From: Dendronalium phyllosphericum CENA369
GTDB taxonomy: Bacteria > Cyanobacteriota > Cyanobacteriia > Cyanobacteriales > Nostocaceae
Reading direction: 5' to 3'
DNA: 64,000 nt
NCBI RefSeq assembly: GCF_016056275.1
Contig: NZ_JAECZA010000003.1
Span: 1 to 64,000, forward strand
The translations under genes were made by a program, and so were the position numbers. Shown one piece after another: positions 15,219 to 41,000 of this stretch. Every line of letters starts with the position of its first letter. The first letter of the stretch is position 1. The notes beneath the pieces are model-generated. The model worked only from the letters and a program-made list of their open reading frames with translations. It made no database searches and was not told where the DNA came from.

Positions 15219-18200
15219 ATGAGTAAATTTTCTCATAGCATCTTTAAACCTGATAACAACAGTTCTACACTTGTAGAACTGTTGCATTTAAGAAGCTCTA
15301 CACAGCCGCTTAGAGATGCTTTTACCTTCTTGTTCGATGGGGAAACAGAACAAGCAACCTTAAGCTATCAAGAATTGGATAGGCGATCGCGTCGCATAGC
15401 TGCTCAATTACAAAAATTAAATTTATCTGGAGAACGAGCTTTACTACTTTATCCGGCGGGACTAGATTTTTTAGTTGCTTTTTTCGGTTGTTTGTATGCG
15501 GGAGTTATTGCTGTAACTGCCTATCCCCCGCGAAATCAGCGTAACACACCGAGAATCAAAGCTATTGCAATAGACGCACAAGCAGCGATCGCTCTGACAA
15601 CAACAGACATCTTGCCTACAGTACAGTCTTTGATGATAGAAAAGACTGGTCTAGAATCTTTGCAGTGGCTAACTACTGATAATCTTACAGAGGGTATAGA
15701 AGAGACTTGGCAAGAACCTGCTATTGATGGAGATACATTAGCCTTTTTGCAATACACCTCTGGTTCTACAGGAACGCCCAAAGGTGTGATGATTAGTCAT
15801 GGAAACCTACTGCATAATGCTGCCACGACTTACCAATTCATGGAGCATTCTCCAGAAAGTAAATTTGTGACGTGGTTGCCAATGTACCACGATATGGGTT
15901 TGATTGGAGGGATTTTGCAACCTTTGTATGGAGGTTTTCCTTGCATTATCATGCCTCCAACTTCCTTTCTCCAACGTCCTTATCGTTGGTTGCAAGCTAT
16001 CTCTCAGTACAAAGGTACAACTAGTGGCGGCCCGAACTTCGCCTATGAATTATGCGCTCAAAAAATTACTCCCGAACAAAAACAAACTCTTGATTTGAGT
16101 AGTTGGAGTGTTGCATTTAACGGCGCGGAACCGATTCGTCATGATACTTTAGAGCGGTTTGCAGCAGCTTTTGCAGAGTGTGGTTTCCGTAAAGAAGCAT
16201 TCTACCCATGTTATGGAATGGCTGAAACAACTCTCATGGTTTCTGGTGTTGATAAGGCAACATCACCGATTATTAAAACAGTCGAGAAGTCTGCATTAGA
16301 ATTTAATCGCTTAGTTGAATCAGCCGCTCAAAATGAGGATGTATATCATTTTGTCAGTTGCGGTCGGATCGTACCAGAACAGAAGGTAGTAATTGCCAAT
16401 CTCGAAACCTTGACTCATTGCAAACCCGATGAAATCGGAGAAATTTGGGTATCCGGGCCGAGTGTTGGTCAAGGTTATTGGAATCGTTCTCAAGAAACAG
16501 CAGAAACCTTTCGTGCTTATTTATCAGACACAGGTGCAGGCCCTTTCCTGCGGACGGGGGATTTAGGCTTTTTACACAATGACGAGCTTTTCATTACAGG
16601 TAGAGCCAAAGATTTAATTATCATTCGAGGCCGCAATCTTTACCCCCAAGATATAGAATTAACCGCCCAGTGCAGTCATCCATCCTTACGTTCTGGTGCT
16701 GGTGCAGCTTTTACAGTAGAGGTTAACAAGGAAGACAGGCTAGTAATAGTCCAAGAATTGGAGTTTCGCGCCAAGCCAAATTTAGCAGAAGTAGCGATCG
16801 CAATTCGACAAGCGATTACTGAAGAACATGAAGTACAAGTTTATGGCGTAGTTTTAATTAAACCAGGTAGTATCCCGAAAACTTCCAGCGGTAAGATTCA
16901 ACGACGAGCAACTCGCACTCAATATCAGAATGGCGAACTGAATGTAATTGTTAGTGACATTCTCAAAATTAGCGATATTGTTAGAAAGGAAACTCGTTTA
17001 CAACGTTCTGAACTTTTAGCGCTTTCACCAAAAGAGTCTCAACCGATTCTAGAATCATATCTGATTGAACTCTTGGCGAGAGTACTGGCGATCGCACCAG
17101 ATGATATCAATCCTCAAGCACCATTAAGCACTCTCGGACTTGATTCTTTAAAAGTATTTGAGTTGAAAAATCAGATTGAGGCTGATTTAGGAGTAGAAGT
17201 ATCTGTAGCAGACTTCTTTGAAGGGATGAGTACGCGCTCGCTCGTTATCAATATCCTCGCTCAAATAACAAAAGATGCACTACCGTCAATATCTCTGACT
17301 CAACAAGAACAAAATACATCTATTTATCCTCTATCTTTTGGCCAGCAGGGATTGTGGTTTATTAACCAGTTAAATCCTGATACTCCTACATATAACGTTT
17401 CTATAGTTATTAACTTCAGAGGCTGCATTAACTTAACAGCTTTACAAAATAGTCTTAACGAAATTATTAGACGACACGAAGTATTACGCACAAGCTTTAC
17501 AGCAGTTGATGGAAAACCCATTCAAGTTATCAATCAAGCTGTACCGTTAAATTTAACCGTAGAAGATTTGCGACCGCTTCCGATCAGCGATCGCTCTCAA
17601 GAAGCACAACGTTTAGCTACAGAGTTCGCACAACAGCCGTTTGACTTATCTTCTCAATCGCTTTTGCGTACTAAAATTTTACAATTAAATGACAAAAGTT
17701 ATCAATTGCTTGTCACCTCGCATCATATAATTGCAGATGGTTGGTCTATCAGTATTTTGATTAAAGAACTAGCTGTACTATATGAAGCATTCTCCCAAGG
17801 CAAGCGATCGCCATTACCGCAATTACCAATTCAGCATGGAGATTTTGTCAATTGGCAGCGAAAATGGCTTAGTTTTGACCGCATTCATCCATTATTGACT
17901 TATTGGAAACAAAAATTGCAAGGCGAGCTACCTGTACTCAATTTGCCAACAGACCGTTCGCCATCGCCAGTTCAAATATTCAAAGGTGCTCAAGCGAAAT
18001 TAGTTCTTTCTCCAACTTTGACAAAAGAACTCAAGAATTTGAGCCGTCAGCAGGGGGTAACTCTGTTTATGACCTTGCTGACAGCCTTCAAAATTTTGCT
18101 GTATCGTTACACAGGTCAGACTGATATATTAATAGGTTCGCCAATCGCCAATCGTAACAGAGCAGAAATTGAGTCATTAATAGGATTTTTTGTCAATGTT

Positions 18201-20519
18201 TTAGTCCTGCGTACAGACCTATCTGGCGACTTGAGTTTTCAGGAGTTACTAGCGCGGGTGAAGTCAACAGCTTTAGAAGCTTACGTTCATCAAGACTTGC
18301 CTTTTGAGAAGTTAGTAGAAGAACTACAGCCAAATCGAGACTTAAGTTACAATCCCCTATTTCAAGTAATGTTCGTTCTTCAGAATGTACCCAAACCCAA
18401 TCTAAATCTTACGGATGTATCAGTTACTTACGAAGAAGGTTACAACGGCACATCTAAGTTTGATTTGACATTGTTTATGGAGGATTCCGAGCAAGGGTTG
18501 GTTGCAACTTGTGAGTACAATACGAATTTATTTAATGCAGATACAATAACTCGGATGTTGGGACACTTGCAGACCTTATTGACAAGTATAGTTAGCGATC
18601 CCCAACAGCGCATAGCAGAATTGCAACTACTAACTTCATCTGAAATACAAAAGTTATTAGTTGAGTGGAATGATACTAAGACAGACTACCCACAAGATAA
18701 GTGCATTCAGCAATTGTTTGAAGCACAGGTAGAAAAAACGCCAAATGCTGTTGCAGTCGTTTTTGACAATCAAGAATTAACCTACCAAGAGTTGAACGAC
18801 CGAGCGAATCAGCTAGCACACTACTTACAAGAACTAGGGGTAAAGCCAGAAGTCATTGTCGGTGTGTGTATGCAGCGCAGCTTAGAAATGGCGATCGCAT
18901 TGCTAGCTATTTTAAAAGCTGGTGGGGCTTACGTACCACTAGACCCGGCTTATCCCCAGGAACGCTTGACTTTCATGCTAGAAGACAGTCAAGCCAAGGT
19001 ACTGCTGACTCAAAGTTATTTGGTTGAATTGTTTGCTAAATCCAATGCGTCTATTGTCTGTATTGATAATTTACAATTACCTAGCCAACATCGAGAAAAT
19101 CCCTCTAGTGAAGTCAAACCAAATAATCTAGCTTATGTCATCTATACTTCTGGTTCGACAGGTGTACCAAAAGGTGTGGCGATCGCACATGCAAGCTGTG
19201 TTGCTTTATTAACATGGTCGAGAGAAGTATTTACAGATGACGAACTGGCTGGAGTTTTAGCATCAACCTCCATTTGCTTTGATTTGTCAGTATTTGAACT
19301 GTTTGTTCCCCTCAGTTGGGGTGGGAAAGCGATCGTTGTAGAGAATGCTTTGCACTTACCCTCGTTGGCTGCTGAGGTCAGCTTAGTTAATACAGTCCCC
19401 AGCGTCATTGCAGAATTACTGCAAGTAAATGGTTTACCAGCTTCAATCAAGACAGTTAATCTTGCTGGCGAACCACTGCAAAATCAACTCGTGCAGCAAA
19501 TTTATCAAAATCATCATATTCAAAAAGTTTTTAATCTTTACGGCCCCTCTGAAGATACGACCTATTCTACATTTACTCAAGTAGATAAAGGAGATAACAA
19601 AGTAACTATCGGTCGTCCCATTGCCAATACACAAATTTATTTACTAGATACTAATTTGCAACCAGTATCAATTGGTGTTCCAGGAGAAATTTATATTGGT
19701 GGTGCTGGTTTAGCTAGAGGCTATTTAAACAGACCAGAGTTAACAAAGGAACGGTTTATATCTAACCCATTTAGTAATAAAATTGAGTCACGACTATATC
19801 AAACTGGAGATTTAGCTCGTTACTTACCAGATGGAAATATAGAATATTTAGGGCGAATCGACCATCAGGTTAAGATTAGAGGATTTCGGATTGAGCTAGG
19901 TGAAATTGAGAATGCCTTGCTCAAACATCCAGCAGTGCGGGAAGTTCTAGTTTTGGCGCGAGAAGATCAACAATTGGTGGCTTATATGGTTTGTTTATCA
20001 GACCAAATACCTACAGTTAATCAACTGCGAACCTATCTTAAAGAACTATTACCTGAATATATGGTTCCTAGTGTTTTTATCTTCTTAGAAACCTTCCCAC
20101 TGTTACCAAATGGAAAAATAGATCGTCGTGCTTTGCCCGTACCAGAAGCCTTGCGTCCCACATTAACGACTGCTTATGAAATGCCGCAGTCAGAAATGGA
20201 ACAGCAGATAGCGAAGCTTTGGCAAGAAGTGCTACATCTCGATAAAGTAGGGATTCATGATAACTTTTTTGATTTAGGTGGGCATTCACTACTGATGCTT
20301 CAGGTTAATCATCAACTGCGGACAATTTTACAGCAAGATATATCAGTAGTGACAATGTTTCAGAACCCGACTATTTACTCTTTAGCGCAATATTTAAGTC
20401 AAACAACAGAGAATGAATTAGCTTTTGAGACGGTACGCGATCGCATCCAAAAACAAAAAGCAGCAAATAATAGAACAAAACAATTATTGATGAAGAAATC
20501 AAGAAATAATTCTCACTAA
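15219..20519 (+). CDS. FAAL-initiated NRPS: FAAL-ACP-C-A(Ala)-PCP
   Basis: The protein has 1766 residues. Residues about 1-590 form a fatty-acyl-AMP ligase (LQYTSGSTGTPKGVMISH, WLPMYHDMGLIGG, FYPCYGMAETT, and the FAAL-type insertion near KEDRLVIVQEL). An ACP with GLDSL follows near 640. A condensation domain begins with YPLSFGQQGLWF near 704 and has an intact HHIIADG near 839. The adenylation domain (about 1160-1660) is followed by a PCP with LGGHSLL near 1687. Reading the Stachelhaus positions by hand gives D-L-F-N-N-A-L-T-Y, which matches the known alanine code DLFNNALTYK. The enzyme should load a fatty acid onto its ACP and acylate Ala, starting a lipopeptide. The basic C-terminal tail (QKQKAANNRTKQLLMKK) resembles tails on other enzymes of this cluster. 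Confidence 0.93.
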   Translation: MSKFSHSIFKPDNNSSTLVELLHLRSSTQPLRDAFTFLFDGETEQATLSYQELDRRSRRIAAQLQKLNLSGERALLLYPAGLDFLVAFFGCLYAGVIAVTAYPPRNQRNTPRIKAIAIDAQAAIALTTTDILPTVQSLMIEKTGLESLQWLTTDNLTEGIEETWQEPAIDGDTLAFLQYTSGSTGTPKGVMISHGNLLHNAATTYQFMEHSPESKFVTWLPMYHDMGLIGGILQPLYGGFPCIIMPPTSFLQRPYRWLQAISQYKGTTSGGPNFAYELCAQKITPEQKQTLDLSSWSVAFNGAEPIRHDTLERFAAAFAECGFRKEAFYPCYGMAETTLMVSGVDKATSPIIKTVEKSALEFNRLVESAAQNEDVYHFVSCGRIVPEQKVVIANLETLTHCKPDEIGEIWVSGPSVGQGYWNRSQETAETFRAYLSDTGAGPFLRTGDLGFLHNDELFITGRAKDLIIIRGRNLYPQDIELTAQCSHPSLRSGAGAAFTVEVNKEDRLVIVQELEFRAKPNLAEVAIAIRQAITEEHEVQVYGVVLIKPGSIPKTSSGKIQRRATRTQYQNGELNVIVSDILKISDIVRKETRLQRSELLALSPKESQPILESYLIELLARVLAIAPDDINPQAPLSTLGLDSLKVFELKNQIEADLGVEVSVADFFEGMSTRSLVINILAQITKDALPSISLTQQEQNTSIYPLSFGQQGLWFINQLNPDTPTYNVSIVINFRGCINLTALQNSLNEIIRRHEVLRTSFTAVDGKPIQVINQAVPLNLTVEDLRPLPISDRSQEAQRLATEFAQQPFDLSSQSLLRTKILQLNDKSYQLLVTSHHIIADGWSISILIKELAVLYEAFSQGKRSPLPQLPIQHGDFVNWQRKWLSFDRIHPLLTYWKQKLQGELPVLNLPTDRSPSPVQIFKGAQAKLVLSPTLTKELKNLSRQQGVTLFMTLLTAFKILLYRYTGQTDILIGSPIANRNRAEIESLIGFFVNVLVLRTDLSGDLSFQELLARVKSTALEAYVHQDLPFEKLVEELQPNRDLSYNPLFQVMFVLQNVPKPNLNLTDVSVTYEEGYNGTSKFDLTLFMEDSEQGLVATCEYNTNLFNADTITRMLGHLQTLLTSIVSDPQQRIAELQLLTSSEIQKLLVEWNDTKTDYPQDKCIQQLFEAQVEKTPNAVAVVFDNQELTYQELNDRANQLAHYLQELGVKPEVIVGVCMQRSLEMAIALLAILKAGGAYVPLDPAYPQERLTFMLEDSQAKVLLTQSYLVELFAKSNASIVCIDNLQLPSQHRENPSSEVKPNNLAYVIYTSGSTGVPKGVAIAHASCVALLTWSREVFTDDELAGVLASTSICFDLSVFELFVPLSWGGKAIVVENALHLPSLAAEVSLVNTVPSVIAELLQVNGLPASIKTVNLAGEPLQNQLVQQIYQNHHIQKVFNLYGPSEDTTYSTFTQVDKGDNKVTIGRPIANTQIYLLDTNLQPVSIGVPGEIYIGGAGLARGYLNRPELTKERFISNPFSNKIESRLYQTGDLARYLPDGNIEYLGRIDHQVKIRGFRIELGEIENALLKHPAVREVLVLAREDQQLVAYMVCLSDQIPTVNQLRTYLKELLPEYMVPSVFIFLETFPLLPNGKIDRRALPVPEALRPTLTTAYEMPQSEMEQQIAKLWQEVLHLDKVGIHDNFFDLGGHSLLMLQVNHQLRTILQQDISVVTMFQNPTIYSLAQYLSQTTENELAFETVRDRIQKQKAANNRTKQLLMKKSRNNSH

Positions 20520-20550: not shown

Positions 20551-21948
20551 ATGCTTACTAGTCCTTCTCGTCCTTGGCAATTATTAACACTTTCTGCTCA
20601 GAGTGACTCAGAATTAAAAACTGCGACTGTAAACCTTGCAGATTATTTAAGACAGCATCGTGACTTTAACCTTGCGGATGTTGCTCAAACATTGCAACGC
20701 GAACAACAAACTTTTAAGCATCGACGGATGATTGTTTGTCGGGATATAGAAGATGCTCTAGTTGCACTTGCAGATCCCAGGCGAGTGCTTACCAACACCC
20801 AAGAAACGCCACAACGTCCTGTTAGTTTTATGTTTCCTGGACTTGGTACTCATTACGTCAACATGGCTCTTGAACTTTACCAAGTTGAACCTGTATTTCG
20901 CGGCTCTGTTGACTATTGTTGTGAATTTCTCCAACCTCTTCTCGGTCAAGATTTGCGAGATGTAATCTATCCAAACAGAACTTCTCAACAAGACCCACAG
21001 TCGCCTCAAGAAAATTCTCCAGGTCTTGACTTGCGAAAAATGTTAGGTCGCAGCCAGACACCAGCCGACGCAAAGATAGTAGCTGCAACATCTTTACTCA
21101 ATCAAACTCATCTCGCTCAACCAGCCATTTTTGTGATTGAATATGCCATAGCAAAGCTATTGATGTCCTGGGGAATTCGTCCAGCGGCAATGATTGGTTA
21201 TAGCATTGGTGAATATGTCGCAGCGACTTTGGCAGAGGTTTTATCTTTAGATGAGGGCTTAAAACTAATTGCTGCTAGAGCGCTGACGATTCAAAAGTTG
21301 CCAGGTGGAGCAATGCTAGCAGTTCCACTTTCGCAAACAGAAATATCCCCCCTACTCAATCGCAAACTCTCACTTTCTGCGGTCAATGGCTCATCTATGG
21401 GTGTAATCGCAGGTGAAACCGATGCGATAGAAGTTTTAGAACAACAGTTAACTCAAAAAGGTTTAGCTTGCCGTCGTTTAGAAACTTCTCATGCTTTTCA
21501 CTCTCAGATGATGGAGGGTGCTGCCTCTGACTTACGTAAGTTGGTAACAACATTTAACCTCCAAGCACCAAAAATTCCTTATATATCTAACGTTACAGGA
21601 ACTTGGATAACAGCAGCATCAGCCACAAATCCTGATTATTGGGTTAAGCATATGTGTCAACCCGTGTTATTTGCTCCGGGGATACAAGAGTTGTGGAAAC
21701 AACAATATCCAATTTTGTTGGAAGTAGGCCCTGGACAGACTCTAGGTAGCTTTGCACAGCAATGTATAGAAAATAATTCAGCAGTTAGTCAAATTATCTT
21801 GCCTTCTGTGAGATATTCCTACGATCGCAAACCAGATTTAGCATTCTTACTGAAAACATTAGGTAGGCTTTGGCTAGCGGGAGTGCCGATAGATTGGGCA
21901 GGATTTTATGCTTGGGAATCTCGTTCTTCTATTCCTTTATCTGTTTAA
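20551..21948 (+). CDS. Stand-alone PKS acyltransferase (trans-acting AT)
   Basis: The 465-residue protein is a single AT domain flanked by pieces of PKS linker. It starts with the KS-AT linker (SPSRPWQLLTLSA) and stops inside the post-AT linker (SSIPLSV, where full PKSs continue PTYPFERQRYW). Catalytic motifs are present: GYSIGE with the nucleophilic Ser, and SHAFHSQM with the catalytic His. The usual GQGTQ is replaced by GLGTHY, and an insertion contains GLDLRKMLGR. Both peculiarities recur in the AT of the PKS at 46225-52308. Placed directly before a hydroxymalonyl-ACP cassette, it likely transfers hydroxymalonyl from the free ACP to a PKS carrier, comparable to the discrete AT of the zwittermicin pathway. 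Its obvious client is the PKS at 27867-33701, whose own AT is destroyed. Confidence 0.85.
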   Translation: MLTSPSRPWQLLTLSAQSDSELKTATVNLADYLRQHRDFNLADVAQTLQREQQTFKHRRMIVCRDIEDALVALADPRRVLTNTQETPQRPVSFMFPGLGTHYVNMALELYQVEPVFRGSVDYCCEFLQPLLGQDLRDVIYPNRTSQQDPQSPQENSPGLDLRKMLGRSQTPADAKIVAATSLLNQTHLAQPAIFVIEYAIAKLLMSWGIRPAAMIGYSIGEYVAATLAEVLSLDEGLKLIAARALTIQKLPGGAMLAVPLSQTEISPLLNRKLSLSAVNGSSMGVIAGETDAIEVLEQQLTQKGLACRRLETSHAFHSQMMEGAASDLRKLVTTFNLQAPKIPYISNVTGTWITAASATNPDYWVKHMCQPVLFAPGIQELWKQQYPILLEVGPGQTLGSFAQQCIENNSAVSQIILPSVRYSYDRKPDLAFLLKTLGRLWLAGVPIDWAGFYAWESRSSIPLSV

Positions 21949-22112: not shown

Positions 22113-22967
22113 ATGAACATTCAAACAGTAGGTGTTGTCGGTGCAGGCGTAATGGGAATTGGGGTCGCACAAAACCTAGCTCAAACAGGTCATCAAGTTA
22201 TTTTGGTAGATATATCTGAAGATATCCTAGATAAAGCTAAACACGAAATTAGGAATAATATCCGCTTTCAGAGCTTTTTTAAGAAAGGCGATCGCCAAGA
22301 ATCGCCAAATACTATCATTGAAGCAATAGAATTTTCCACAAACTATAAAATTTTAGAAAATGCAGATTTTGTAGTAGAAAACGTCACTGAAAAATGGGAT
22401 ATTAAGAGAGAAGTATATCCTCTAATAGATTCTATCTGTCGAGCAGATTGTGTATTTGCCGCTAATACATCAGCAATTCCTATTACCCGTATAGCTTCTG
22501 TCACCAAACGCGCCGATAAAGTTGTTGGGATTCACTTTATGAATCCTGTACCAATGAAGCCCATGGTAGAGATGATTCGTGGATATCATACCTCTGACAC
22601 GACAATTGAGACAGCAAAACAAATGCTATCTCAGATGGGTAAAGAATGCATCATTGTGAATGATGCACCGGGTTTTGTTTCCAACCGCGTGTTGATGTTA
22701 ACTATTAACGAAGCTGTTTTTCTGTTGCAAGACCAAGTGGCTACAGCAGAAGATGTAGACAAAATTTTTAAAGGCTGTTTTGGTCACAAAATGGGGCCTT
22801 TAGAAACAGCAGATTTGATTGGGCTAGACACCATTTTATTTTCTATCGAAGTCTTGTACGAAAACTTCAACGATAGTAAGTACAGGCCATGTACTTTACT
22901 CAAAAAAATGGTGGATGCAGGTTTGCATGGGAGAAAAACTGGTAAAGGTTTTTACGTATATCAATAA
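22113..22967 (+). CDS. 3-hydroxyacyl-CoA dehydrogenase-like enzyme of hydroxymalonyl-ACP synthesis (FkbK/ZmaG-like)
   Basis: At 284 residues this is the full length of the short HAD family. The N-terminal Rossmann motif GVVGAGVMGIGVAQ binds NAD. FAANTSAIPITRIAS, HFMNPVPMKPMVE and NDAPGFVSNRVLM are the conserved catalytic blocks, with the catalytic His in GIHFMNP and the C-terminal GRKTGKGFYVY. In FkbG-K and ZmaD/E/G/N pathways this enzyme oxidises C3 of glyceryl-ACP to the aldehyde. The order here (dehydrogenase, ACP, acyl-CoA dehydrogenase, FkbH) supports that role over beta-oxidation. No O-methyltransferase is present, so the end product should be hydroxymalonyl- rather than methoxymalonyl-ACP. 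Confidence 0.88.
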   Translation: MNIQTVGVVGAGVMGIGVAQNLAQTGHQVILVDISEDILDKAKHEIRNNIRFQSFFKKGDRQESPNTIIEAIEFSTNYKILENADFVVENVTEKWDIKREVYPLIDSICRADCVFAANTSAIPITRIASVTKRADKVVGIHFMNPVPMKPMVEMIRGYHTSDTTIETAKQMLSQMGKECIIVNDAPGFVSNRVLMLTINEAVFLLQDQVATAEDVDKIFKGCFGHKMGPLETADLIGLDTILFSIEVLYENFNDSKYRPCTLLKKMVDAGLHGRKTGKGFYVYQ

Positions 22968-24206: not shown

Positions 24207-24426
24207 ATGAAGTTAATTGTAAAAGTCCTGGTTAGACCGATTTTTGAATGCCTGAATTATTACAAACAGTAATTACCCATACTTAAAAAGCATCTCTGTT
24301 TTTGTAACCTTTAAAATACGCAAGCAAAATGAATCTTAAAAATCATAAATCAAGAAAAAAATAAGATTCATTTTATACACCAACAGCCAGAAAACAGCAT
24401 ATAGCTAAAACAAGTAAGTTGTAATT

Positions 24427-25320: not shown

Positions 25321-25541
25321 TAGTATCGTTTGCTCTAAAAGTAGAAACCTGGAAATAGTTTGTCTACCACATTCAGGAAGTAGCTTCATTTAGCACATTA
25401 TGTTTAGTTTTAAATAAACAACAGAACTAATTTTGAAAGCTTTTCTGTAACTGGTACTGAAACACATTAATTCTTACAAATCTTCACTTAAAAGAGTGGA
25501 ATACTCCTCTTTATAGAGCATTTACAATCATCAGATTGATT

Positions 25542-26726
25542 ATGAAACTAGAACTCTCTGCACAACAAAAAAAGACTCAAACTGAATTTAGAGCTTTTGT
25601 TCATCGAGAAGTATTTGCTTATGCTGGTGAATGGGATAAAAAAGAATTTACCCCACCAGAATTAATTAAAAAAATAGCTCAACGCGGTTTTCTTGGTGCT
25701 ATCTTACCCCAAGAATACGGCGGTAAAGGGATGGACATGATTACCTATGGCATTCTTAACGAAGAAATTGGACGAGGATGTTCTTCTGTTAGGAGTTTGC
25801 TAACAGTTCACAACATGGTTGCTCATGCTTTGTGTAAATGGGGCAATAAATCTCAAAAAGAATATTGGCTTCCCAAATTAGCATCTGGAGAGATCATTGC
25901 TGCTTTTGCTTTAAGCGAACCGAATGTTGGTAGCGATGCTAAAAGTGTGGAAACAACAGCAACGCTGGCTGGCGATGCTTATATTTTAAATGGGCAAAAA
26001 AAATGGATTACCTATGGACAAATAGCAGATATCTTTTTAGTATTTGCTAAATGTGAGGGGAAGCCTACTGCTTTTTTAGTTGAGAAGAATAGTCCAGGAT
26101 TCTCAGTCAAACCAATGTTTGGCATTTTAGGTGTAAGGGCTTCCATGTCAGCAGAATTACAGTTTCATAACTGTCAAATTCCTCAAGAAAACTTAGTCGG
26201 TAAATTAGGTTTTGGATTTTCCTACATTGCTGCTTCTGCCCTTGATTATGGTAGATATAGTGTGGCATCAGGTTGTGTCGGTATTGCTCAAGCTTGCTTA
26301 GAAGCTTGTATTAAGTATACAAACGAGCGAAAACAGTTTGGCGTTTATCTCAAAGAACACCAATTAATTCGCCAAAAGATTACTCAGATGATAACTAACA
26401 CAAAAGCAGCGAGACTGTTATGTTATCAAGCTGGTTATCTCAAAGATATTAACGACCCCAACTCAATTATCGAGACTTCTATTGCTAAGTACTTTGCCTC
26501 TACAGTAGCTACCAAAATAGCAAATGATGCCGTGCAACTTCATGGTGGTAATGGTTGTAGTAGTGAGTACCCTGTTGAGAGGTATTTACGCGACTCGAAA
26601 ATTATGGAAATTATTGAAGGTAGTACTCAAATTCAAGAAGTTACTATTGCTGAGTCAGGTTATCAAGATTATCTTTTTGCAACTGTGACTACTGGCTTTG
26701 AAAAGAAATTAGTAGAGAGAACTTAA
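25542..26726 (+). CDS. Acyl-CoA dehydrogenase-family enzyme of hydroxymalonyl-ACP synthesis (FkbI/ZmaE-like)
   Basis: The protein has about 394 residues from the ATG at 25542. A TTG six bases upstream is also in frame, but ATG is preferred. Family signatures are FALSEPNVGSDAKS, GQKKWITYGQIADIF, YGRYSVASGCVGIAQACLEA, YTNERKQFG and the C-terminal LHGGNGCSSEYPVERYLRD with EGSTQIQ. It binds FAD. In the FkbI/ZmaE role the enzyme oxidises the ACP-bound C3 intermediate toward the extender unit instead of desaturating a fatty acid. The gene lies 3 bp before the FkbH gene, supporting that assignment. Confidence 0.87.
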   Translation: MKLELSAQQKKTQTEFRAFVHREVFAYAGEWDKKEFTPPELIKKIAQRGFLGAILPQEYGGKGMDMITYGILNEEIGRGCSSVRSLLTVHNMVAHALCKWGNKSQKEYWLPKLASGEIIAAFALSEPNVGSDAKSVETTATLAGDAYILNGQKKWITYGQIADIFLVFAKCEGKPTAFLVEKNSPGFSVKPMFGILGVRASMSAELQFHNCQIPQENLVGKLGFGFSYIAASALDYGRYSVASGCVGIAQACLEACIKYTNERKQFGVYLKEHQLIRQKITQMITNTKAARLLCYQAGYLKDINDPNSIIETSIAKYFASTVATKIANDAVQLHGGNGCSSEYPVERYLRDSKIMEIIEGSTQIQEVTIAESGYQDYLFATVTTGFEKKLVERT

Positions 26727-26729
26727 TAT

Positions 26730-27800
26730 ATGATTAGTATTCAAGAGCAAAATATAAATAGCAAACAAAAAGATAAAAAATTTATTAAATGTGTTGTATG
26801 GGATTTAGATAATACTTTATGGCACGGAATTTTACTAGAAGATGATAAAGTTTCTTTGCAAGAAAATATAGTACATCTGATTCACAATTTAGATAGTCGT
26901 GGTATACTACAATCTATAGCTAGTAAGAATGATTGGGCTACAGCAATAGCTAAATTAGAAGAATTTGGGTTAAAAGAGTATTTTTTATATCCCCAAATTA
27001 ATTGGAATTCTAAAGCCGCTTCTTTGAAAGAAATTGCTAAGTTACTGAATATTGGTATAGATGCGATCGCCTTCATCGACGACCAATTATTTGAGCTAGA
27101 AGAAGTAAAGTTTTCTTTGCCGGAAATTATCTGTATCAATGCAGATGAAATAGGGAATATTGTAGATATGCCTGTCATGAATCCCCGGTTTATTACGGAA
27201 GATTCACGAATTAGAAGGTTGATGTATCTTAGCGATATTGAGCGGCAAAATGCAGAGAATGAGTTTGTTGGCACATCAGACGAATTTTTAGCTACTCTGA
27301 AGATGAATTTCACAATATCTTCTGCTCAAGAAGAAGATTTGCAACGTGCGGAAGAGTTAACGCTACGAACTAATCAATTGAATACAACTGGTTATACCTA
27401 CTCTTACGACGAACTGAATCATTTTCGCTGTTCAGAAAGCCATAAACTGTTGATTGCGAGTTTGGAAGATAAGTATGGTAGCTACGGGAAAATAGGTTTA
27501 CTTTTAATTGAATGTCAGCCTCAGTCATGGACAATTAAGTTGTTGCTGATGTCTTGTCGGGTGATGTCGCGGGGTGTGGGGACAATTATGTTGAATCATA
27601 TTATGAGTTTGGCTAAAAGTAACAACGTGCGTCTTCTGGCGGAATTTGTATCAAACGATCGCAACAGAATGATGTATATATCTTATAAGTTTGCTGGGTT
27701 TAAGGAAGTTGATAAGAATGGCGATTTGGTGATTTTTGAAAATGATTTAAGTCGCATTCAAGATGTACCTGGGTATGTGAATTTTCAAGTGATTGATTAA
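26730..27800 (+). CDS. FkbH-like glyceryl transferase/phosphatase (HAD superfamily)
   Basis: At 356 residues this is the usual size of discrete FkbH proteins. The N-terminal HAD motif is VVWDLDNTLWHGIL with the catalytic aspartates. DDQLFELEEVK and the C-terminal half (LRTNQLNTTGYTYS, LLLMSCRVMSRGVG) match the FkbH family. These enzymes take 1,3-bisphosphoglycerate, remove the phosphate and attach the D-glyceryl group to the partner ACP. This is the committed step to hydroxymalonyl-ACP, which with the dehydrogenases and ACP just upstream forms a complete set. The next gene downstream is the first PKS. Confidence 0.92.
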   Translation: MISIQEQNINSKQKDKKFIKCVVWDLDNTLWHGILLEDDKVSLQENIVHLIHNLDSRGILQSIASKNDWATAIAKLEEFGLKEYFLYPQINWNSKAASLKEIAKLLNIGIDAIAFIDDQLFELEEVKFSLPEIICINADEIGNIVDMPVMNPRFITEDSRIRRLMYLSDIERQNAENEFVGTSDEFLATLKMNFTISSAQEEDLQRAEELTLRTNQLNTTGYTYSYDELNHFRCSESHKLLIASLEDKYGSYGKIGLLLIECQPQSWTIKLLLMSCRVMSRGVGTIMLNHIMSLAKSNNVRLLAEFVSNDRNRMMYISYKFAGFKEVDKNGDLVIFENDLSRIQDVPGYVNFQVID

Positions 27801-27866: not shown

Positions 27867-30800
27867 ATGAATAATGATAAAAATTATGAGTTAATAGAGG
27901 GGGTTGCTATTATCGGGATGGCGGGGCGTTTTCCTGGAGCCATCAGCATAGAATCTTTTTGGCAGAATTTACAAGATGGAGTGGAATCATTATCCTTATT
28001 TACAGATGAAGAGTTAATTGCTGCTGGCGTACCTGGGGCGTTGGTAAATGATAGTAATTATGTGAAAGTTGGTGGCGTTTTAGAAGATATTGATTTATTT
28101 GATGCGGCATTTTTCGATTTGAATCCGAAGGAAGCTGAAGTTACAGATCCTCAACATCGTCTGTTTTTGGAATGCGCTTGGTCGGCTTTAGAAAATGCTG
28201 GTTATGATTCAACTAAGTGTGAAAGTAGAATTGGTGTTTATGCAGGTGCTAGTTTAAATAATTATTTAGCTTTTGATTTAAAAAAAGACCAATTAGGGTC
28301 TGGAGAATCATACCAAAAGTTAATTGGTAATGATAAAGGATTTCTCTCAACTCGTGTTTCTTATAAATTAAATCTTACCGGGCCGAGTATTACAGTTCAA
28401 ACAGCTTGTTCTACATCATTAGTTGCTACTACACTTGCCTACCAAAGTTTGCAAAATTATCAATGCGATATGGCTTTGGCGGGAGGAGTTTCTATTCGCT
28501 TGCCGCAAAAAACTGGTTATTTCTATGAACCAGGAGGGCCGCTATCTCCTGATGGTCATTGTCATGCTTTTGATGCTAAGGCGCAGGGAACAACTGTTGG
28601 TAATGGTGTGGGAGTAGTTGTTCTCAAACGAGTCAAAGATGCGATCGCCGATGGGGATTGCATATATGCTGTGATTAAAGGCGCTGCAATTAATAACGAC
28701 GGTTCGATGAAAGTCGGGTATACAGCGCCTAGCGTCGATGGCCAAGCAGAAGCGATCGCGGAAGCGATAATGTTAGCAGAGGTAGAACCGGAAACAATCA
28801 GCTATATTGAAGCCCACGGTAGCGGTACAGCTTTGGGCGACCCGATTGAAATTGCCGCGCTGACTAAAGTTTTTCGTGCCAATACTGAGAAAAAGAATTT
28901 CTGCGCCATTGGTTCAGTCAAAACGAATATCGGTCATTTAGATGCAGCCGCAGGAGTTGCAGGGTTAATCAAAACTGCTTTGGCTTTAAAACATCAATTG
29001 ATTCCACCAAGCCTCAACTTTGAGCAGCCTAATCCTGAAATTGATTTTGCCAACAGTCCTTTTTATGTCAACACCAACCTAAAGGAATGGAAAGGCTCGA
29101 CTCCCCGCCGCGCAGGTATAAGTTCTCTAGGAATGGGGGGAACCAATACTCACGTAGTTTTAGAAGAAGCCCCAACACTTCCAGCTTCTAGTCCTTCTCG
29201 TCCTTGGCAATTATTGGTACTCTCGGCGAAAACTGAGTCTGCTTTAGCAACTGCTACGCAAAATCTCAGCCAACATCTGACGCTACATTCTGATATTAAT
29301 CTTGCAGATGTCGCTTATACTTTGCAAGTCGGACGTAGAGACTTTAGTCATCGGCGAATATTGGTTTGCTCTAATGTTCAAGATGCAATTCAGGCATTGA
29401 ATCAACCAGCCTCACAACAAGCTGTAACTCAATTTCAAGAGTCAGGAACTCGCTCTGTTGCTTTCATCTTTCCTGGGGTAGATGCGCTGTATGCAGACAT
29501 GGGTAGAGAACTCTATGAAACGGAGTCAGTATTTCGCGCTCAGGTAGAACGGTGCTGTCTGATATTAAAACCACATCTAGATTTAGATTTGCGATCGGTA
29601 ATTTATAAGAGCGAATCTGAAGAGGAAACCGCAGTAGAGATACAACATACTGGCTTTGCTGAAAGCGCCTTGTTTGTTATTGAGTATGCTTTGGCGCAAT
29701 TGTGGATGTCTTGGGGTATTTCTCCGCAAGCAATGATTGGACAAGGTGTTGGAGAATATGTCGCTGCAACTTTAGCCGGAGTGTTTTCTCTTGAAGATGC
29801 TCTTGTACTAGTGGCGAAATCTTCTACTAAATTGTTAGAAAAAGTTCAATTGAATCCTCCAAAAATTCCATTTATATCCAATGTTAGCGGCACTTGGATT
29901 ACTCAAGCTGAGGCAACAAACCCTAACTATTGGACACAAATACAGCAACCAAAACTTTTTAATAAAGGAATTGCCGAGTTACTTAAAGACAAACAGCGAA
30001 TTCTGCTAGAAGTTGGTTTTAGAGAGACTTTGAGTCATGCCGAATTAACTATACCCTATCCTCACGAGCAGCATTCAGAAGTAGCATTTTTACTCAATAC
30101 CTTGGGTCGGTTGTGGATGTTGGGAATTAAGATTGATTGGTCAAGTTTTTATGCTAACGAACGCCGTTATCGTCTACCCTTACCAACCTATCCCTTCGAG
30201 CGTCAGCGCTATTGGATTGAATCTACAACTTCCCAAAAATCATTAGTTCAAATACCTGCTGTTGAAAATCAGCGTTATTCGATTGAGCTAGATTCATCTA
30301 CCTCAGAAACAGCATCACAACAATCATTAGATAAAAAGCCAAATATCGCTGACTGGTTTTATATTCCAGTGTGGAAACAATCCATGCCGCTTGAGTTTTT
30401 TCAAGAAGAACTGAGCCAACAAAAATTGTATTGCTTAGTCTTTGTAGATAACTATGGAGTGGGAACTGAATTTGTTGAACGGCTGAAACAGCAAAATCAA
30501 GATATCATTATCGTGCGGCTGGGCGAACAGTTTAGTAAACTTGATGACCAGATATATTGCATCAATCCCCAACAACCAGATGACTATGATGCATTACTGA
30601 AAGAACTACAAAAACAAAATTTTAAACTAAATACAATTGCCCACTTTTGGAGCGTTACACCAAGTGATATTTCGCTCAAAAATCAGGATTGGGATTTGAG
30701 CTTCTATAGCCTGTTATTTTTAGCACAAGCAATCGGAAAACAAGATATTTGGGATTCCCTAAAATTGATGGTCGTCACCAGTAATTTACATGATGTAACT

Positions 30801-33701
30801 GGCGATGAAAATCTATACCCACAGAAGGCTACGATATTAGGGCCGTGCAAAGTAATTCCCAAGGAATATCGCAGTATTAATTGCAGTCTTGTTGATTTAG
30901 TAATGGATTCTGCTCAATCTTCTATATCTTCCAAAAGCATAGATAAATTAGTAGCAGAATTAACACTTAAACAAACTGATGAAATAGTTGCCTATCGTGG
31001 ATATCACCGTTGGGTGCAGACTTTTGATGCAGTTTCTTTAGAAAACAGCATTGCCAACAAAACTAAGTTAAGAAAAGGTGGAGTTTACTTAATTACTGGC
31101 GGACTTGGAGGTATTGGTCTAGTATTAGCGGAACATCTGGCAAAGACATTCCAAGCTAAATTAATACTCATCAGCAGAAAGGGATTACCGGAACGCTCTG
31201 AATGGGAACAATGGCTAGTAGTTCATAATAGCCAAGATGCTATCAGTCGTCAAATCCAAAAAGTGCGATCGCTCTTACAATTAGGAGCACAAATTGAAGT
31301 CATAAGTGCTGATGTAACTAATTCTGCACAAATGCAAGCAGTAATTACTCAAGCATTACAAAAGTTCGGTGAAATTAATGGTGTCATTCATGCGGCTGGG
31401 ATTCCTGGCGGTGGCGTTACCCAACTCAAAACGCGGGATATGGCCAGCAATGTCTTAGCAGCAAAAGTCCAAGGTACGTTAGTTTTAGAAGAAGTTTTCA
31501 AGGATATAAATTTAGATTTTTTCGTACTTTGTTCGTCTAAAACTTCTATTTTGGGTGAATTTGGGCAGATAGATTATTGTGCAGCTAATGCCTTTTTAGA
31601 TGCTTATGCTCGTTGTAATTATAGGCGCGATCGCTTAACAGTATCAATTAGTTGGGATACTTGGCAAGAAGTTGGGTTTGCAGTCGAAACGGTATTACCA
31701 GATAAAATTCAACAAGAACGTACAGAAATTATCAAAAAAGGCATATTATCTCAAGAAGGGATCGATGTTTTTAACCGCGTTCTGGGAAGTAAGCTACCTC
31801 ATGTTGTTGTTTCAACCCAAGATTTACCCGCCTTAATTCAGCAAAATAATTCTCCTCAATATTTGCAAGAGCAATTATCTTCAGTTAATCTTTCTAAAGC
31901 AAAACATTCTCGTCCTAATTTAGGTAATGATTACATTGCTCCCGAAACCGAAATTGAGGAAATCCTAGCTGACATTTGGCAAGAAATTCTGGGAATAGAC
32001 AAAATAGGTATCTACGACAACTTCTTTGAATTAGGCGGAAATTCCATCAACACAATTCAAATTGCCGCCAAAGCTAACCAAGCTGGTTTGAAATTAACAT
32101 CTCAACAATTTTTCCATTACCAGACAATTGCCGAATTAGCAACAGATTTATCTATTACTCTAACTATCCAACCTGAATTAAATATCACACCGATTCAGGA
32201 TAGCTTCCTCGAACAAAATCAGTCCGATTTACACCCGATAAATCAGTCTTTACTGCTGGAAATACAACGAGTGTGTGACGACCAAAAGTTACTAGAAAAT
32301 ATCGAAGACATTTACGAACTCACACCTGTACAAAAGGGGATGCTTTTTCACTGTTTATTTGATAGCGAACTGTCTCTATATTTTTTCCAGCATATCTTTA
32401 CTTTGCATGGCGATCTGAATATAGAAGCATTTAAAAAAGCTTGGCAATTGGTAATGGATCGACATCCCATTTTACGTACTAGATTTTATTGGGAGGAAGT
32501 TAAAAACCCATTACAAATAGTTTACAAACAGGTAGAAGTACCTCTGAATTATTATGATTGGTCTAATATAAATTCAGTCGAACAAAAAGCACAACTCGAC
32601 TCTTTTATAGTAAGCGATCGCCAAAAAAGTTTTGACTTCTCCCAACCATGTTTGATGCGTCATACTTTAATTCGCTTTACCGATGACAAGTATCTATATA
32701 TTTGGAGTTTTAACCACATCATTATTGATGGTTGGGGTGGTTCATTAGTATTCCAAGAATTTGTAGAAACTTATGGAACACTTTGTCAAGATAAACAAAC
32801 TAGCTTTGCACCTACGCGTCCTTTTAGAGAATACATTGATTGGTTGCAGCAGCAGGACATATCAAAAGCCGAGAATTTCTGGCGACAAGCATTGCAAGGT
32901 GTTAAAACACCAACTTCTCTAACTTACATAGAAAAACTAGAAAAAATTGAGCGATCGTCTACCCAAGAAGTCAGGTATAGTGAAGAGATAATTCAACTAT
33001 CACCAACAACTACAGAGGCGCTACAAACCTTTGCAACACAACATCGTCTTACCCTTGCTACGATAATCAACGGTATTTGGGCCGTTCTCCTGAGTCGTTA
33101 TACTTGTTGCCACAACATATTGTATGGTTGCACCGTTACTGGACGACCAGCAGACTTGCAGGGAGTAGAATCAATGGTAGGTATGTTTGTTAATACCTTG
33201 CCCATCCATGTCAATATAGATACCGAACAGCTTTTCTTATCATGGCTACAGCGTTTTCAACTGCAATTAGTTGAAGTCCGCGATTATGAATACACTCCAC
33301 TAACAGAAATTCATAAGTGGAGCGAAATCCCCCAAAAATTAACCTTGTTTGAAAGCATCGTTGTAGTTGAAAACTTTCCAGTCAGCGAATTTATCCGAGA
33401 CTGGCAAGGAAATATAGAATTTCAACATACAGAAATATATTACCGAAATAACTATCCTCTCAACTTGGTTGTCTACCCCAATAAAGAGTTATTAATAGCT
33501 ATTTCCTATGATTCTAGAAGATTTGAGACAACTACCATTGCTGGTATCCTCAAAGATATTGAAATGCTATTGCAAGGGTTAATAAATAATCACAATTTTC
33601 AAATTAAAAACTTACCCTTGCTGACACCAGAACAGCAACAAAATGCTGCATTTTTAAACAAAGAATTATCCTTTAATTGGTCTTTTACTTCATGGAGTTA
33701 A
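27867..33701 (+). CDS. PKS-NRPS hybrid: KS-AT(inactive)-KR-ACP-C
   Basis: The protein has 1944 residues. The KS (about 10-430) is intact: TACSTS with active Cys, EAHGSGT and KTNIGHLD. The AT (about 525-770) is broken. GQGxQ reads FPGVDALY, the GHSxG serine motif reads GQGVG (about 625-629), and roughly 80 residues that carry the SHAFHS catalytic His are missing after VAKSSTK (about 650). The KR (GGLGGIG near 1075; Ser, Tyr and Asn of DYCAAN kept) and ACP (LGGNSI near 1390) look functional. The final condensation domain (about 1470-1940; TPVQKGMLFH, then NHIIIDG with the second His kept) is of the type that follows epimerases. The module should need acyl units from the free AT at 20551-21948, giving an alpha-hydroxy, beta-hydroxy unit after Ala if hydroxymalonyl is used. 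Confidence 0.9.
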   Translation: MNNDKNYELIEGVAIIGMAGRFPGAISIESFWQNLQDGVESLSLFTDEELIAAGVPGALVNDSNYVKVGGVLEDIDLFDAAFFDLNPKEAEVTDPQHRLFLECAWSALENAGYDSTKCESRIGVYAGASLNNYLAFDLKKDQLGSGESYQKLIGNDKGFLSTRVSYKLNLTGPSITVQTACSTSLVATTLAYQSLQNYQCDMALAGGVSIRLPQKTGYFYEPGGPLSPDGHCHAFDAKAQGTTVGNGVGVVVLKRVKDAIADGDCIYAVIKGAAINNDGSMKVGYTAPSVDGQAEAIAEAIMLAEVEPETISYIEAHGSGTALGDPIEIAALTKVFRANTEKKNFCAIGSVKTNIGHLDAAAGVAGLIKTALALKHQLIPPSLNFEQPNPEIDFANSPFYVNTNLKEWKGSTPRRAGISSLGMGGTNTHVVLEEAPTLPASSPSRPWQLLVLSAKTESALATATQNLSQHLTLHSDINLADVAYTLQVGRRDFSHRRILVCSNVQDAIQALNQPASQQAVTQFQESGTRSVAFIFPGVDALYADMGRELYETESVFRAQVERCCLILKPHLDLDLRSVIYKSESEEETAVEIQHTGFAESALFVIEYALAQLWMSWGISPQAMIGQGVGEYVAATLAGVFSLEDALVLVAKSSTKLLEKVQLNPPKIPFISNVSGTWITQAEATNPNYWTQIQQPKLFNKGIAELLKDKQRILLEVGFRETLSHAELTIPYPHEQHSEVAFLLNTLGRLWMLGIKIDWSSFYANERRYRLPLPTYPFERQRYWIESTTSQKSLVQIPAVENQRYSIELDSSTSETASQQSLDKKPNIADWFYIPVWKQSMPLEFFQEELSQQKLYCLVFVDNYGVGTEFVERLKQQNQDIIIVRLGEQFSKLDDQIYCINPQQPDDYDALLKELQKQNFKLNTIAHFWSVTPSDISLKNQDWDLSFYSLLFLAQAIGKQDIWDSLKLMVVTSNLHDVTGDENLYPQKATILGPCKVIPKEYRSINCSLVDLVMDSAQSSISSKSIDKLVAELTLKQTDEIVAYRGYHRWVQTFDAVSLENSIANKTKLRKGGVYLITGGLGGIGLVLAEHLAKTFQAKLILISRKGLPERSEWEQWLVVHNSQDAISRQIQKVRSLLQLGAQIEVISADVTNSAQMQAVITQALQKFGEINGVIHAAGIPGGGVTQLKTRDMASNVLAAKVQGTLVLEEVFKDINLDFFVLCSSKTSILGEFGQIDYCAANAFLDAYARCNYRRDRLTVSISWDTWQEVGFAVETVLPDKIQQERTEIIKKGILSQEGIDVFNRVLGSKLPHVVVSTQDLPALIQQNNSPQYLQEQLSSVNLSKAKHSRPNLGNDYIAPETEIEEILADIWQEILGIDKIGIYDNFFELGGNSINTIQIAAKANQAGLKLTSQQFFHYQTIAELATDLSITLTIQPELNITPIQDSFLEQNQSDLHPINQSLLLEIQRVCDDQKLLENIEDIYELTPVQKGMLFHCLFDSELSLYFFQHIFTLHGDLNIEAFKKAWQLVMDRHPILRTRFYWEEVKNPLQIVYKQVEVPLNYYDWSNINSVEQKAQLDSFIVSDRQKSFDFSQPCLMRHTLIRFTDDKYLYIWSFNHIIIDGWGGSLVFQEFVETYGTLCQDKQTSFAPTRPFREYIDWLQQQDISKAENFWRQALQGVKTPTSLTYIEKLEKIERSSTQEVRYSEEIIQLSPTTTEALQTFATQHRLTLATIINGIWAVLLSRYTCCHNILYGCTVTGRPADLQGVESMVGMFVNTLPIHVNIDTEQLFLSWLQRFQLQLVEVRDYEYTPLTEIHKWSEIPQKLTLFESIVVVENFPVSEFIRDWQGNIEFQHTEIYYRNNYPLNLVVYPNKELLIAISYDSRRFETTTIAGILKDIEMLLQGLINNHNFQIKNLPLLTPEQQQNAAFLNKELSFNWSFTSWS

Positions 33702-38080: not shown

Positions 38081-41000
38081 ATGGAAATCCCAGTAAATTA
38101 TTTAAACGAGAAAACAGGATTAGAAATAGCTATTATCGGTCTGAGTGGCTGTTTCCCTAAAGCTCAAAATATCGAGCAATTTTGGCAAAATCTCCGAGAC
38201 GGAATCGAGTCAATTCATTCTTTCACTGATGAAGAGTTAAAAAATTTAGGTGTAGATGCTGCCCTGATTGCAGACCCTAATTATGTTAAAGCACAGGGTG
38301 TAGTTGAAGGCGTAGATTTATTTGATGCTGCATTTTTTGGCATCAGCCCTAGAGAAGCTGAAATCATGGACCCTGCAATGCGTTTCTTTTTAGAATACGC
38401 CTGGACGGCACTTGAAAATGCTGGCTACAGTTGCGAAGCTTACAATCAGCCAATTGGAGTTTATGCTGGTACTAATTTTGGCGGTTATTTATTAAATATT
38501 TATTCAAATTCCGATATTGTAGCCTCTGTTGGCGATAAACAAATAGAAAAAGGTATCTCCCCAGCTTACATTACTACACTTACTTCTTATAAATTAAACT
38601 TGCAGGGGCCGAGTTATGGAGTTCAAACCACCTGTTCGAGTTCATTAGTTGCTTTGCATTTAGCCTGTCAAAGTTTGCTTAGTGGCGAATGTGATATTGC
38701 TTTGGCTGGAGGAGTTTCAATATCCCAAGCAGTTGGTTATGTATATCAGCAAGAAGGAATTGAATCTCCTGATGGGCATTGTCGTGCTTTTGATGCCAAG
38801 GCCAAGGGAACTGTTAGAGGAAGGGGTTTAGGTATTGTAGTCTTAAAACGTTTAGAGGAAGCGATCGCAGATGGTGATTGCATCCATGCAGTTATCAAAG
38901 GTTCTGCGATTAACAATGATGGCGCGAATAAAGTTAGCTATACTGCACCCAGCATTCACGGCCAAGCAAAGGCGATTAGAGCAGCTCAAATGATGGCTGA
39001 GGTGGAACCCGAAACAATCACCTATATAGAAGCTCACGGAACTGGAACAACTCTTGGAGATCCGGTTGAAGTTGCCGCACTGACACAAGCTTTTCGCAGC
39101 AAAACTCCCAAAAAAGGCTTTTGTGCAATTGGTTCTGTAAAAACCAATATTGGACATTTGGACGAAGCTGCTGGAATTGCAGGTCTAATTAAAACTGTCT
39201 TAGCTCTGAAACACAAACAAATACCGCCTAGCTTGAATTTTGAAGAACCAAATCCTCAGATAGATTTTACTAACAGTCCTTTTTATGTCAACAATGCACT
39301 ATCTGAGTGGAAAACTAATGGCACTCCTCGCCGTGCGGGTGTGAGTTCCTTTGGTTTTGGCGGGACAAATGCCCATGTAATTTTAGAAGAAGCACCAATT
39401 GTAGAGGGGCAGGGGAGCAGGGGAGCAGGGGAGCCAGTGCGTTGCGGAGGTTCCCTCCGTTGTAGCAACTGGCGTGAGCAGGGGAGAAAGTATCAATTAT
39501 TAGTTCTTTCTGCCAAAACGGAATCGGCGCTAGAAACTGCTACAGAGAATTTAGCTAATCACTTGCGAGAGTATCCAGATTTAAATCTCGCTGATGTTGC
39601 TCATACTTTGCAAGTGGGTCGCTGGATTTTCAATCATCGCCGTATGGTAATTTGCCAAGACCGAGAAGATGCAATCAAGGCACTGCAAGACCCTCAAAGA
39701 GCTTTCACCCATTACCAAGAACCTTGCAATTGCTCTGTAGTGTTTATGTTTTCCGGGCAGGGTACGCAATATGTGAATATGGGTCGGGAATTATACGAGA
39801 GTGAAAGCGTATTTAGAGAGCAAGTTGATTACTGCTGCGAACTGCTCAAACCTCTGTTGGATTTAGACCTGCGTCAAGTTCTCTACCCCAGCGAAGCAGA
39901 AGCTTTAACCGCAACACAAAAGTTGCAGCAAACAGCAATTACTCAACCAGCACTGTTTGTCATTGAATACGCTTTAGCCAAGTTATGGATGGCGTGGGGC
40001 GTGCAACCTGAAGCGATGATTGGTCACAGTATCGGAGAGTATGTAGCTGCAACCATAGCTGGAGTTTTCTCCCTAGAAGATGCTTTAGCGATCGCTGCCA
40101 CCCGCGGCAAACTCATGCAGCAAATGCCAACTGGTGCTATGCTCTCTATTCAGCTTCCAGAACAAGAAGTACAACAACTGTTAGAAAAGGAAGTTTCTCT
40201 GGCTGCAAGCAATGCACCTTCTTCCTGCGTAGTATCCGGTTCCGAAGCAGCAATTGACCGATTGCAACAAAAGCTCCAACAACTAGGTGTCAGCTGTCGG
40301 CGTTTGCATACTTCCCATGCCTTTCATTCACAAATGATGTCACCCATCATTGAGACTTTCACCCAGTCGTTACAAAAAATCAAACTCAATCCCCCGCAAA
40401 TTCCGTTTGTGTCCAATGTTAGCGGCACTTGGATTACCGCAGCCGAAGCAACAAATCCTAACTATTGGGCAAAGCATTTGAGGCAACCAGTACGCTTCAG
40501 TCACGGAATAAGTGAATTGCTTCGCCAGCCACGAATATTGTTAGAAGTCGGGCCGGGAAGGACGCTCAGTAGTTTGGCAAAACATCAAACAGATGAAGCG
40601 ATTGTACTAACTTCTATACGGCATCCTCAAGAGCAACAATCAGATATCGCGTTTTTACTTGACACTTTGGGTCAGCTGTGGTCAGCAGGAGTTAAAATTG
40701 ACTGGTCAGGTTTTTATGCAAACCAAAAGCGTCATCGCATACCCTTACCTACTTATCCTTTTGAGCGCCAACGTTACTGGATTGAGGTAAATCGAAATGC
40801 AACTCTGGCGATGATGTCGCCCAAAAATTTAGATAAAAAGCGAGAAATTGCTGACTGGTTTTACATTCCTCGCTGGCGAGAATCGACACCGCTTGAGCTA
40901 AACCAAAAGGAAAAACTAGTAGAACAAAAGTTCTCTTGGTTAGTGTTTGTCGATACCTATGGAATAGGAGCAGAAATTGCTGAAAAACTCAAGCAACAAG

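Follow-up and report, generated by a model that had tools for sequence, protein, structure and literature searches.

The window, as we call the whole 64-kb stretch of DNA analysed here, covers bases 1-64000 of contig C133 in a genome of 8.38 Mb and contains a hybrid NRPS/PKS cluster (Table 1). A search with PKS1 returned Nostoc-like cyanobacteria as the nearest named relatives. Because genes for a TonB receptor, a periplasmic binding protein and an ABC transporter lie close by, the surroundings of the cluster suggest that its product is a siderophore. The starter protein is followed by the stand-alone acyltransferase (AT), the 3-hydroxyacyl-CoA dehydrogenase, the small acyl carrier protein (ACP), two Cupin_8 proteins, the acyl-CoA dehydrogenase, FkbH and PKS1, in this order. 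We read the starter protein as FAAL-ACP-C-A-PCP and, by gene order, as the upstream partner of PKS1. The two Cupin_8 proteins (23268-25320), between the small ACP and the acyl-CoA dehydrogenase, may hydroxylate the product; the same slot holds one such protein in genome G295 and none in G370 and G324, and G384 has one further on.

Table 1 Features of the NRPS/PKS cluster, in positions of the window
Feature	Position	Strand	Basis
Starter protein; two AMP-binding, two carrier and one C domain	15219..20519	+	Pfam
Stand-alone AT; KS-AT linker and intact AT (GYSIG, HAFHS), without post-AT linker	20551..21948	+	
3-hydroxyacyl-CoA dehydrogenase family	22113..22967	+	Pfam; slot conserved
Small free-standing acyl carrier protein, 83 aa	22987..23238	+	ORF; ACP matches below cut-offs (NCBIfam)
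Acyl-CoA dehydrogenase family	25536..26726	+	Pfam; slot conserved
FkbH, glyceryl-ACP forming enzyme family	26730..27800	+	TIGR01686, 284.5 bits (cut-off 146.65)
PKS1; KS - KS-AT linker - AT remnant - KR - ACP - C	27867..33701	+	Pfam; motifs; orthologs
AT remnant of PKS1; large-subdomain core and post-AT linker, small subdomain deleted	29457..30215	+	
GQGVG replacing GHSIG; nucleophile Ser to Gly	29739..29753	+	
Deletion junction (VAKSS/TKLL)	29811..29837	+	
PKS2; cis GHSIG AT, intact comparison	38081..42850	+	
PKS3; other module with GYSIG-type AT, in cis	46225..52308	+	
PKS4; cis GHSIG AT, intact comparison	58647..63326	+	

The AT domain of PKS1

According to the original prediction, the AT of PKS1 has lost its catalytic motifs by substitution and by a deletion of about 80 residues, in a frame that stays open. 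An alignment of the ATs of PKS1, PKS2, PKS3 and PKS4 with the discrete, stand-alone AT of the window bears this out. PKS1 has FIFPGVDALY where PKS2, PKS3 and PKS4 share FMFSG.G..Y and the stand-alone AT has FMFPGLGTHY; at residue 625 it reads GQGVG, compared with GHSIG or GYSIG in the other four; and a gap of 84 columns removes SHAFHS. The remnant aligns to residues 4-218 and 313-443 of ZmaA-AT (PDB 4qbu), and the counterpart of ZmaA-AT residues 219-312 (94 residues, including the catalytic His) is absent. In the available text of the ZmaA-AT study, the small-subdomain stretch R284-T291, the pocket lid and H297 all fall in this deleted part (PMC4207774). The position given for the domain was right as well, and with its end linker it extends over approximately 29457-30215. 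Judged by these residues the AT of PKS1 is catalytically dead, and with Ser and His both lost the module is left with no functional AT of its own. In Pfam the truncated domain scores 73.2 bits (cut-off 32.7), and domain finders will score such ATs as working.

The reading frame of PKS1 is open and the motifs of its other domains are largely in place. The KS is intact (Cys in TACSTS; His in EAHG and NIGHLD), the KR has GGLGGIG and the Ser/Tyr motif ending in YCAAN, and the carrier Ser is present in GGNS. The C-domain motif, also thought to be intact, is so only in part: in NHIIIDG the second His of HHxxxDG is kept, but the first is Asn. Elsewhere in the cluster, the NRPS protein at 35258-38068 starts with half a condensation domain (profile positions 181-456) that has no HHxxxDG; proteins of similar length (918-942 aa) occur in relatives, and the half domain may be a second eroded domain that is conserved in the cluster.

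The orthologs of PKS1 in G370, G295, G324, Cyanomargarita calcarea and Nostoc sp. FACHB-280 also have a truncated AT with a lost Ser; we group these five genomes with the window as class A. The comparison of orthologous clusters had been proposed as a check, and a lesion common to six genomes rules out an assembly or sequencing error. In all six, the stand-alone AT, both dehydrogenases, the small ACP and FkbH are located just upstream of PKS1; in G295, a stop codon shortens the stand-alone AT by about nine codons and leaves its motifs intact. The Cyanomargarita remnant reads GHGIG, which points to a GHS ancestor. On account of its motif and of the missing GYS-type insert, we favour a malonyl-type AT as the ancestor of the PKS1 remnant; a tree that places the remnant among the GYS ATs stays admissible (p-AU 0.17). 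The PKS1 KS is nearest to the KSs of first-position modules in relatives (76-84 percent, against at most 68 percent for other modules outside class A), and groups with cis-AT KSs in a comparison limited to the modules of this analysis.

An AlphaFold2 model of the linker and remnant, built from 27 truncated homologs, reached a pLDDT of 82.4 and a pTM of 0.84. It superimposes on ZmaA-AT with a Z score of 39.2 and 1.9 Å over 331 residues. Structure prediction had also been put forward as a check, and since the model aligns to ZmaA-AT, the remnant still models as an AT core, its fold kept except for one subdomain. Together with both linkers, the large subdomain would probably stay as a structural part of the KS-AT body; the retained core could also be a docking domain for a discrete AT.

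Selection on PKS1 was estimated with our own Nei-Gojobori script in four orthologs (the window, G370, G295 and G324), with the domains of PKS1 itself as comparators. Mean dN/dS was lowest in the ACP (0.059) and the KS (0.074), which are under the strongest constraint in these four genomes, followed by the catalytic part of the KR (0.171), the AT remnant (0.263) and the KS-AT linker (0.297). The value for the non-orthologous C domain of G295 is to be ignored. The module around the dead AT is maintained, in agreement with the claim that it is under selection, and the remnant is relaxed yet constrained, with dN/dS well under 1. The stand-alone AT has a mean dN/dS of 0.227 (five genomes).

The stand-alone AT and the putative extender-unit genes

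The discrete AT of the cluster keeps both Ser and His and ends just before the post-AT linker. Only two of the 11 fabD-model matches in this genome are in frames of less than 1000 aa, namely FabD and the stand-alone AT. We searched 388 genomes with the stand-alone AT, scoring at most four candidates per genome. Its 20 nearest matches, its own included, all have GYS rather than GHS at the nucleophile, and 19 of them have an FkbH gene within 25 kb (in one case split), G244 being the exception. Among the full-length matches the figure is 34 of 52, with none for the ten most distant. A GYS-type AT lies near 30 of the 34 FkbH genes of stand-alone size, compared with none of the 48 in larger frames. 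These counts leave out three FkbH matches, two of them partial (G223 and G243) and one the second half of a gene that is split in G343, and also AT matches that cover part of the query only; two of the four FkbH genes counted as having no GYS-type AT (G165; G043 contig C21) have a partial match within 7 kb.

The best solved relative of the stand-alone AT is ZmaA-AT (333 bits, against 250 for the next), which has the nucleophile motif GYSFG and is specific for hydroxymalonyl-ACP, as far as the available text describes it (PMC4207774). This similarity and the company of FkbH suggest that the stand-alone AT is of the ZmaA (hydroxymalonyl-ACP) type. Against this speaks the absence of the hydrophobic MXW-type motif that has been proposed for ACP-linked ATs, five residues ahead of the catalytic-His motif: HAFH is preceded by A-C-R in the stand-alone AT, which resembles the S-C-R and E-C-R of its malonyl-type sisters, and ZmaA-AT has M-C-M.

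In AT-core trees the 16 GYS-type ATs form one clade, in which the stand-alone ATs are sister, with full support, to a cis AT of G303. Twelve related FkbH clusters (G240, G378, G303, G265, G139, G166, G056, G229, G134, G292, G374 and G295 contig C70) have a GYS-type PKS protein before the 3-hydroxyacyl-CoA dehydrogenase, in the place occupied by the stand-alone AT in the window. These proteins are 1539-1976 aa long (1645 aa in G229) and directly precede the dehydrogenase in 11 clusters; in G378 only, a 691-aa frame intervenes. Of the 27 ATs read across the first ten clusters (G240 to G292), not one is dead. Most simply, a cis hydroxymalonyl module would have been cut down to its AT, and PKS1 would have lost its own.

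Other genes of this region make up an FkbH set. FkbH scores well above the cut-off of its family model, and both dehydrogenases are adjacent; both also occur in the five remaining class A genomes and in all of the 13 further FkbH clusters read. We take the 3-hydroxyacyl-CoA dehydrogenase to have an FkbK/ZmaG-like role and the acyl-CoA dehydrogenase an FkbI/ZmaE-like one. The 83-aa ORF between them matches five ACP families with E values from 1.8e-6 to 7.7e-9, all scoring below the cut-offs, and we read it as a dedicated free-standing ACP; this slot holds a small ACP in every other class A genome and in 12 of the 13 further clusters, with no match in G139. We propose that it carries the extender unit. 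Pfam detected no O-methyltransferase gene among the genes at 20551-27800; an MT domain does occur in the NRPS at 52308-56870. Because the O-methyltransferase gene is missing from this region, and by analogy with the zwittermicin pathway, the ACP-bound three-carbon unit that the set would make is most likely hydroxymalonyl-ACP.

Proposed loading of the PKS1 module

The stand-alone AT had been mentioned as a possible helper of PKS1, and the comparative evidence makes it a likely loader. We propose, with a probability of roughly 0.6, that it acts in trans and supplies hydroxymalonyl to PKS1 as the single AT-dead module. The AT of PKS1 is inactivated by the change of Ser to Gly and by clean excision of the small subdomain with the catalytic His, the large subdomain being retained. 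FkbH, the two dehydrogenases and the free ACP would provide an ACP-bound three-carbon unit, and the stand-alone ZmaA-type GYSIG AT, descended from a cis AT, would move this unit onto the ACP of PKS1. PKS2, PKS4 and PKS5 would self-load malonyl-CoA, and PKS3 would self-load through its own GYSIG AT. One module of a cis-AT line would in this way have become a trans-AT module, with a probable change of extender unit in the process.

Among the 388 genomes searched, a dead AT is present in all five clusters found to have a stand-alone AT (PKS1 in four, PKS2 in G384) and in one of 12 FkbH clusters that have none (G374; 20 to 92 kb read of each), an association with a Fisher p of 0.001 if relatedness is ignored. 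Four of the five cases are one inherited event and the dead module of G384 is PKS2, so that there are two independent cases, in which a different module is served. The PKS2 of G384 (L105 18331 onward into L106) reads GHGIG and keeps HAFHS; it is point-mutated, not truncated.

Counting against loading of PKS1, PKS3 could be the sole user of the hydroxymalonyl unit. Alternatively, the housekeeping FabD or the AT of a neighbouring module might load malonyl on PKS1, with the stand-alone AT irrelevant to it. The genome does encode a FabD (contig C296, 319.8 bits), and a review, in its available text, reports that a malonyl transacylase restored a module whose AT had been inactivated (PMC6164871). 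In addition, two AT-dead modules of class B, described below, have neither a stand-alone AT nor FkbH nearby (G295 contig C171, 78 kb read; G363, 39 kb read), so for these another loader must exist. We nevertheless consider loading by FabD or a neighbour unlikely for PKS1, as it leaves unexplained why each of the six class A genomes keeps a stand-alone AT, catalytic motifs included, next to the dead module.

PKS1 might also be non-extending, its ACP never loaded and the chain passed on, perhaps reduced, or the module might be decaying, which would fit the faster evolution of the AT remnant than of the KS (0.263 against 0.074) and the Asn in the C-domain motif. The complete KS, KR and ACP motifs and the strong constraint on ACP and KS make this distinctly improbable. 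That the stand-alone AT serves PKS1 with malonyl instead of hydroxymalonyl seems more doubtful still: the MXW signature is missing and GYS in place of GHS is no proof of specificity, but its AT type is linked to FkbH sets and it is close to ZmaA-AT.

Trans-loading of hydroxymalonyl on PKS1, if true, would provide a natural blueprint for changing one building block of an assembly line with no swap of its built-in AT, in which an AT is killed, its core kept and a discrete AT added. Six natural replicas, and the cis-AT state in relatives, are at hand for comparison, and a candidate discrete AT for hydroxymalonyl-ACP is available for testing. A 2018 review, in its available text, gives KirCII, OzmC and ZmaF as the discrete ATs whose non-malonyl specificity has been confirmed by experiment (PMC6164871). 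In the zwittermicin A line, as far as the available texts go, ZmaA-AT (hydroxymalonyl-ACP) acts in cis and ZmaF (aminomalonyl-ACP) is discrete (PMC4207774, PMC6164871). The present cluster resembles that system in its predicted route to ACP-bound units, the GYS motif of its putative hydroxymalonyl AT and its discrete AT in a mixed PKS/NRPS line; it differs in that the hydroxymalonyl type would here be the discrete one and in that the module served retains a truncated AT. KirCII (ethylmalonyl-CoA) and OzmC (methoxymalonyl-ACP) are discrete ATs that likewise supply an unusual unit, KirCII to one particular carrier, according to the parts available of PMC6164871 and PMC5818483. The latter describes built-in ATs in only one PKS protein of the kirromycin line, unlike the single AT-dead module in an otherwise cis-AT line seen here.

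Truncated ATs in other genomes

Isolated AT-dead modules in cis-AT lines had been considered uncommon, which did not hold. With the remnant as query, we found at least 27 truncated ATs, the window's included, in at least 23 of 388 genomes of the order; these genomes, and this genome again, were searched with at most six candidates per genome scored. Among the matches listed, all 27 truncated ATs have no HAFHS, and the nucleophile position is Gly in 18, Asp in three, Asn in three, Glu in one and Ser in two. Untruncated ATs in the same loci kept Ser in 38 of 39 cases and HAFHS in 36 of 39. Either the Ser or the subdomain can be lost first, because two loci keep Ser without the subdomain and the PKS2 of G384 is the reverse.

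Apart from one in G318, the truncated ATs listed fall into three classes. In class B (G374, G295 contig C171 and G363) the dead module comes after a PLP decarboxylase, where the window has the intact PKS4, whose KS is sister to the class B KSs. Class C comprises 19 modules among the matches listed, and 11 of these lie in frames of 948-1107 aa. Of the 11, L053 was scanned; it is a KS-AT remnant-ACP protein with glycosyltransferase genes downstream. Classes A and B as a single clade were rejected in an AU test (p-AU 0.0005, with groups taken from the similarity search, though earlier trees had already been seen), and represent separate losses. A quick KS tree of 57 modules requires 10 changes of state, nine of them forced by starred branches, and a quick AT-core tree of 83 rows requires eight, three of them forced. 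A single origin of all truncated ATs is supported neither by these trees nor by the AU test.

For the 23 truncated ATs outside class A among the matches listed, the DNA read contains no stand-alone AT. AT-dead modules can thus evidently be served by other means, and a role of the stand-alone AT as universal loader is rejected; FabD may load the modules outside class A. We give even odds to a general reading, in which cyanobacterial cis-AT lines repeatedly make single trans-AT modules by loss of the nucleophile and excision of the small subdomain, the large one being kept as a scaffold, and in which the lineage of the window made a natural extender-unit swap with a discrete hydroxymalonyl-ACP AT cut from a neighbouring cis module.

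In kind this is AT displacement, known from trans-AT lines and from algae in the available texts of PMC6164871 and PMC4661987. In algal type I PKSs, built-in ATs were lost and replaced in trans, as we propose here; the algal case, in the text available, is eukaryotic and concerns whole multimodular proteins, in contrast to single bacterial modules with the AT core kept (PMC4661987). Pepstatin PepC of Streptomyces catenulae also has a truncated AT beside an NRPS gene; in the available text it is counted as cis-AT, and its likeness to PKS1 covers the presence of a truncation, not the extent (PMC12081711). As far as their available texts show, PMC12184294 deals with module mixing in cyanobacterial NRPS/PKS clusters, not with AT loss, and PMC5764310 with a malonyl trans-AT line; FkbH was not found in the main text of PMC11877528 or PMC12628792. 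In the parts available of the open-licence literature, neither the cluster nor the class is described under truncated, inactive or remnant ATs and AT-less modules with FabD, under zwittermicin-type or discrete hydroxymalonyl ATs, or under FkbH or hydroxymalonyl in cyanobacterial siderophores and lipopeptides; print beyond it may differ. The setting is new, and the form of AT loss is recurrent and precise. The oxazolomycin PKS is reportedly AT-less, going by a title in a reference list; here, one module in an otherwise cis-AT line is concerned.

Several further observations were made in these genomes. This genome encodes a second truncated AT (GYGVG; L010:1942-9803, contig C258), in a 1019-aa PKS frame beside a PKS with a normal AT. 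A like pair of frames is present in L053, L055, L057 and L064, in L053 together with glycosyltransferases and a TubC_N-bearing protein, and in G206 (L062) the frame ends at the truncated AT. L159, from an Anaerolineae bacterium record, has two shortened ATs (276 and 281 aa) that keep Ser and in which no HAFH-type motif was found; AT shortening may extend beyond cyanobacteria. PKS4 and PKS5 (63319 onward) of the window have 87 percent DNA identity over 2.6 kb, and a comparison of 242 columns shows identical AT cores, which points to a recent duplication or to gene conversion. The PKS4 ortholog of G324 (L072:12567-17217) is in two overlapping frames with the break within the AT, away from the stretch joins, and is a possible frameshift.
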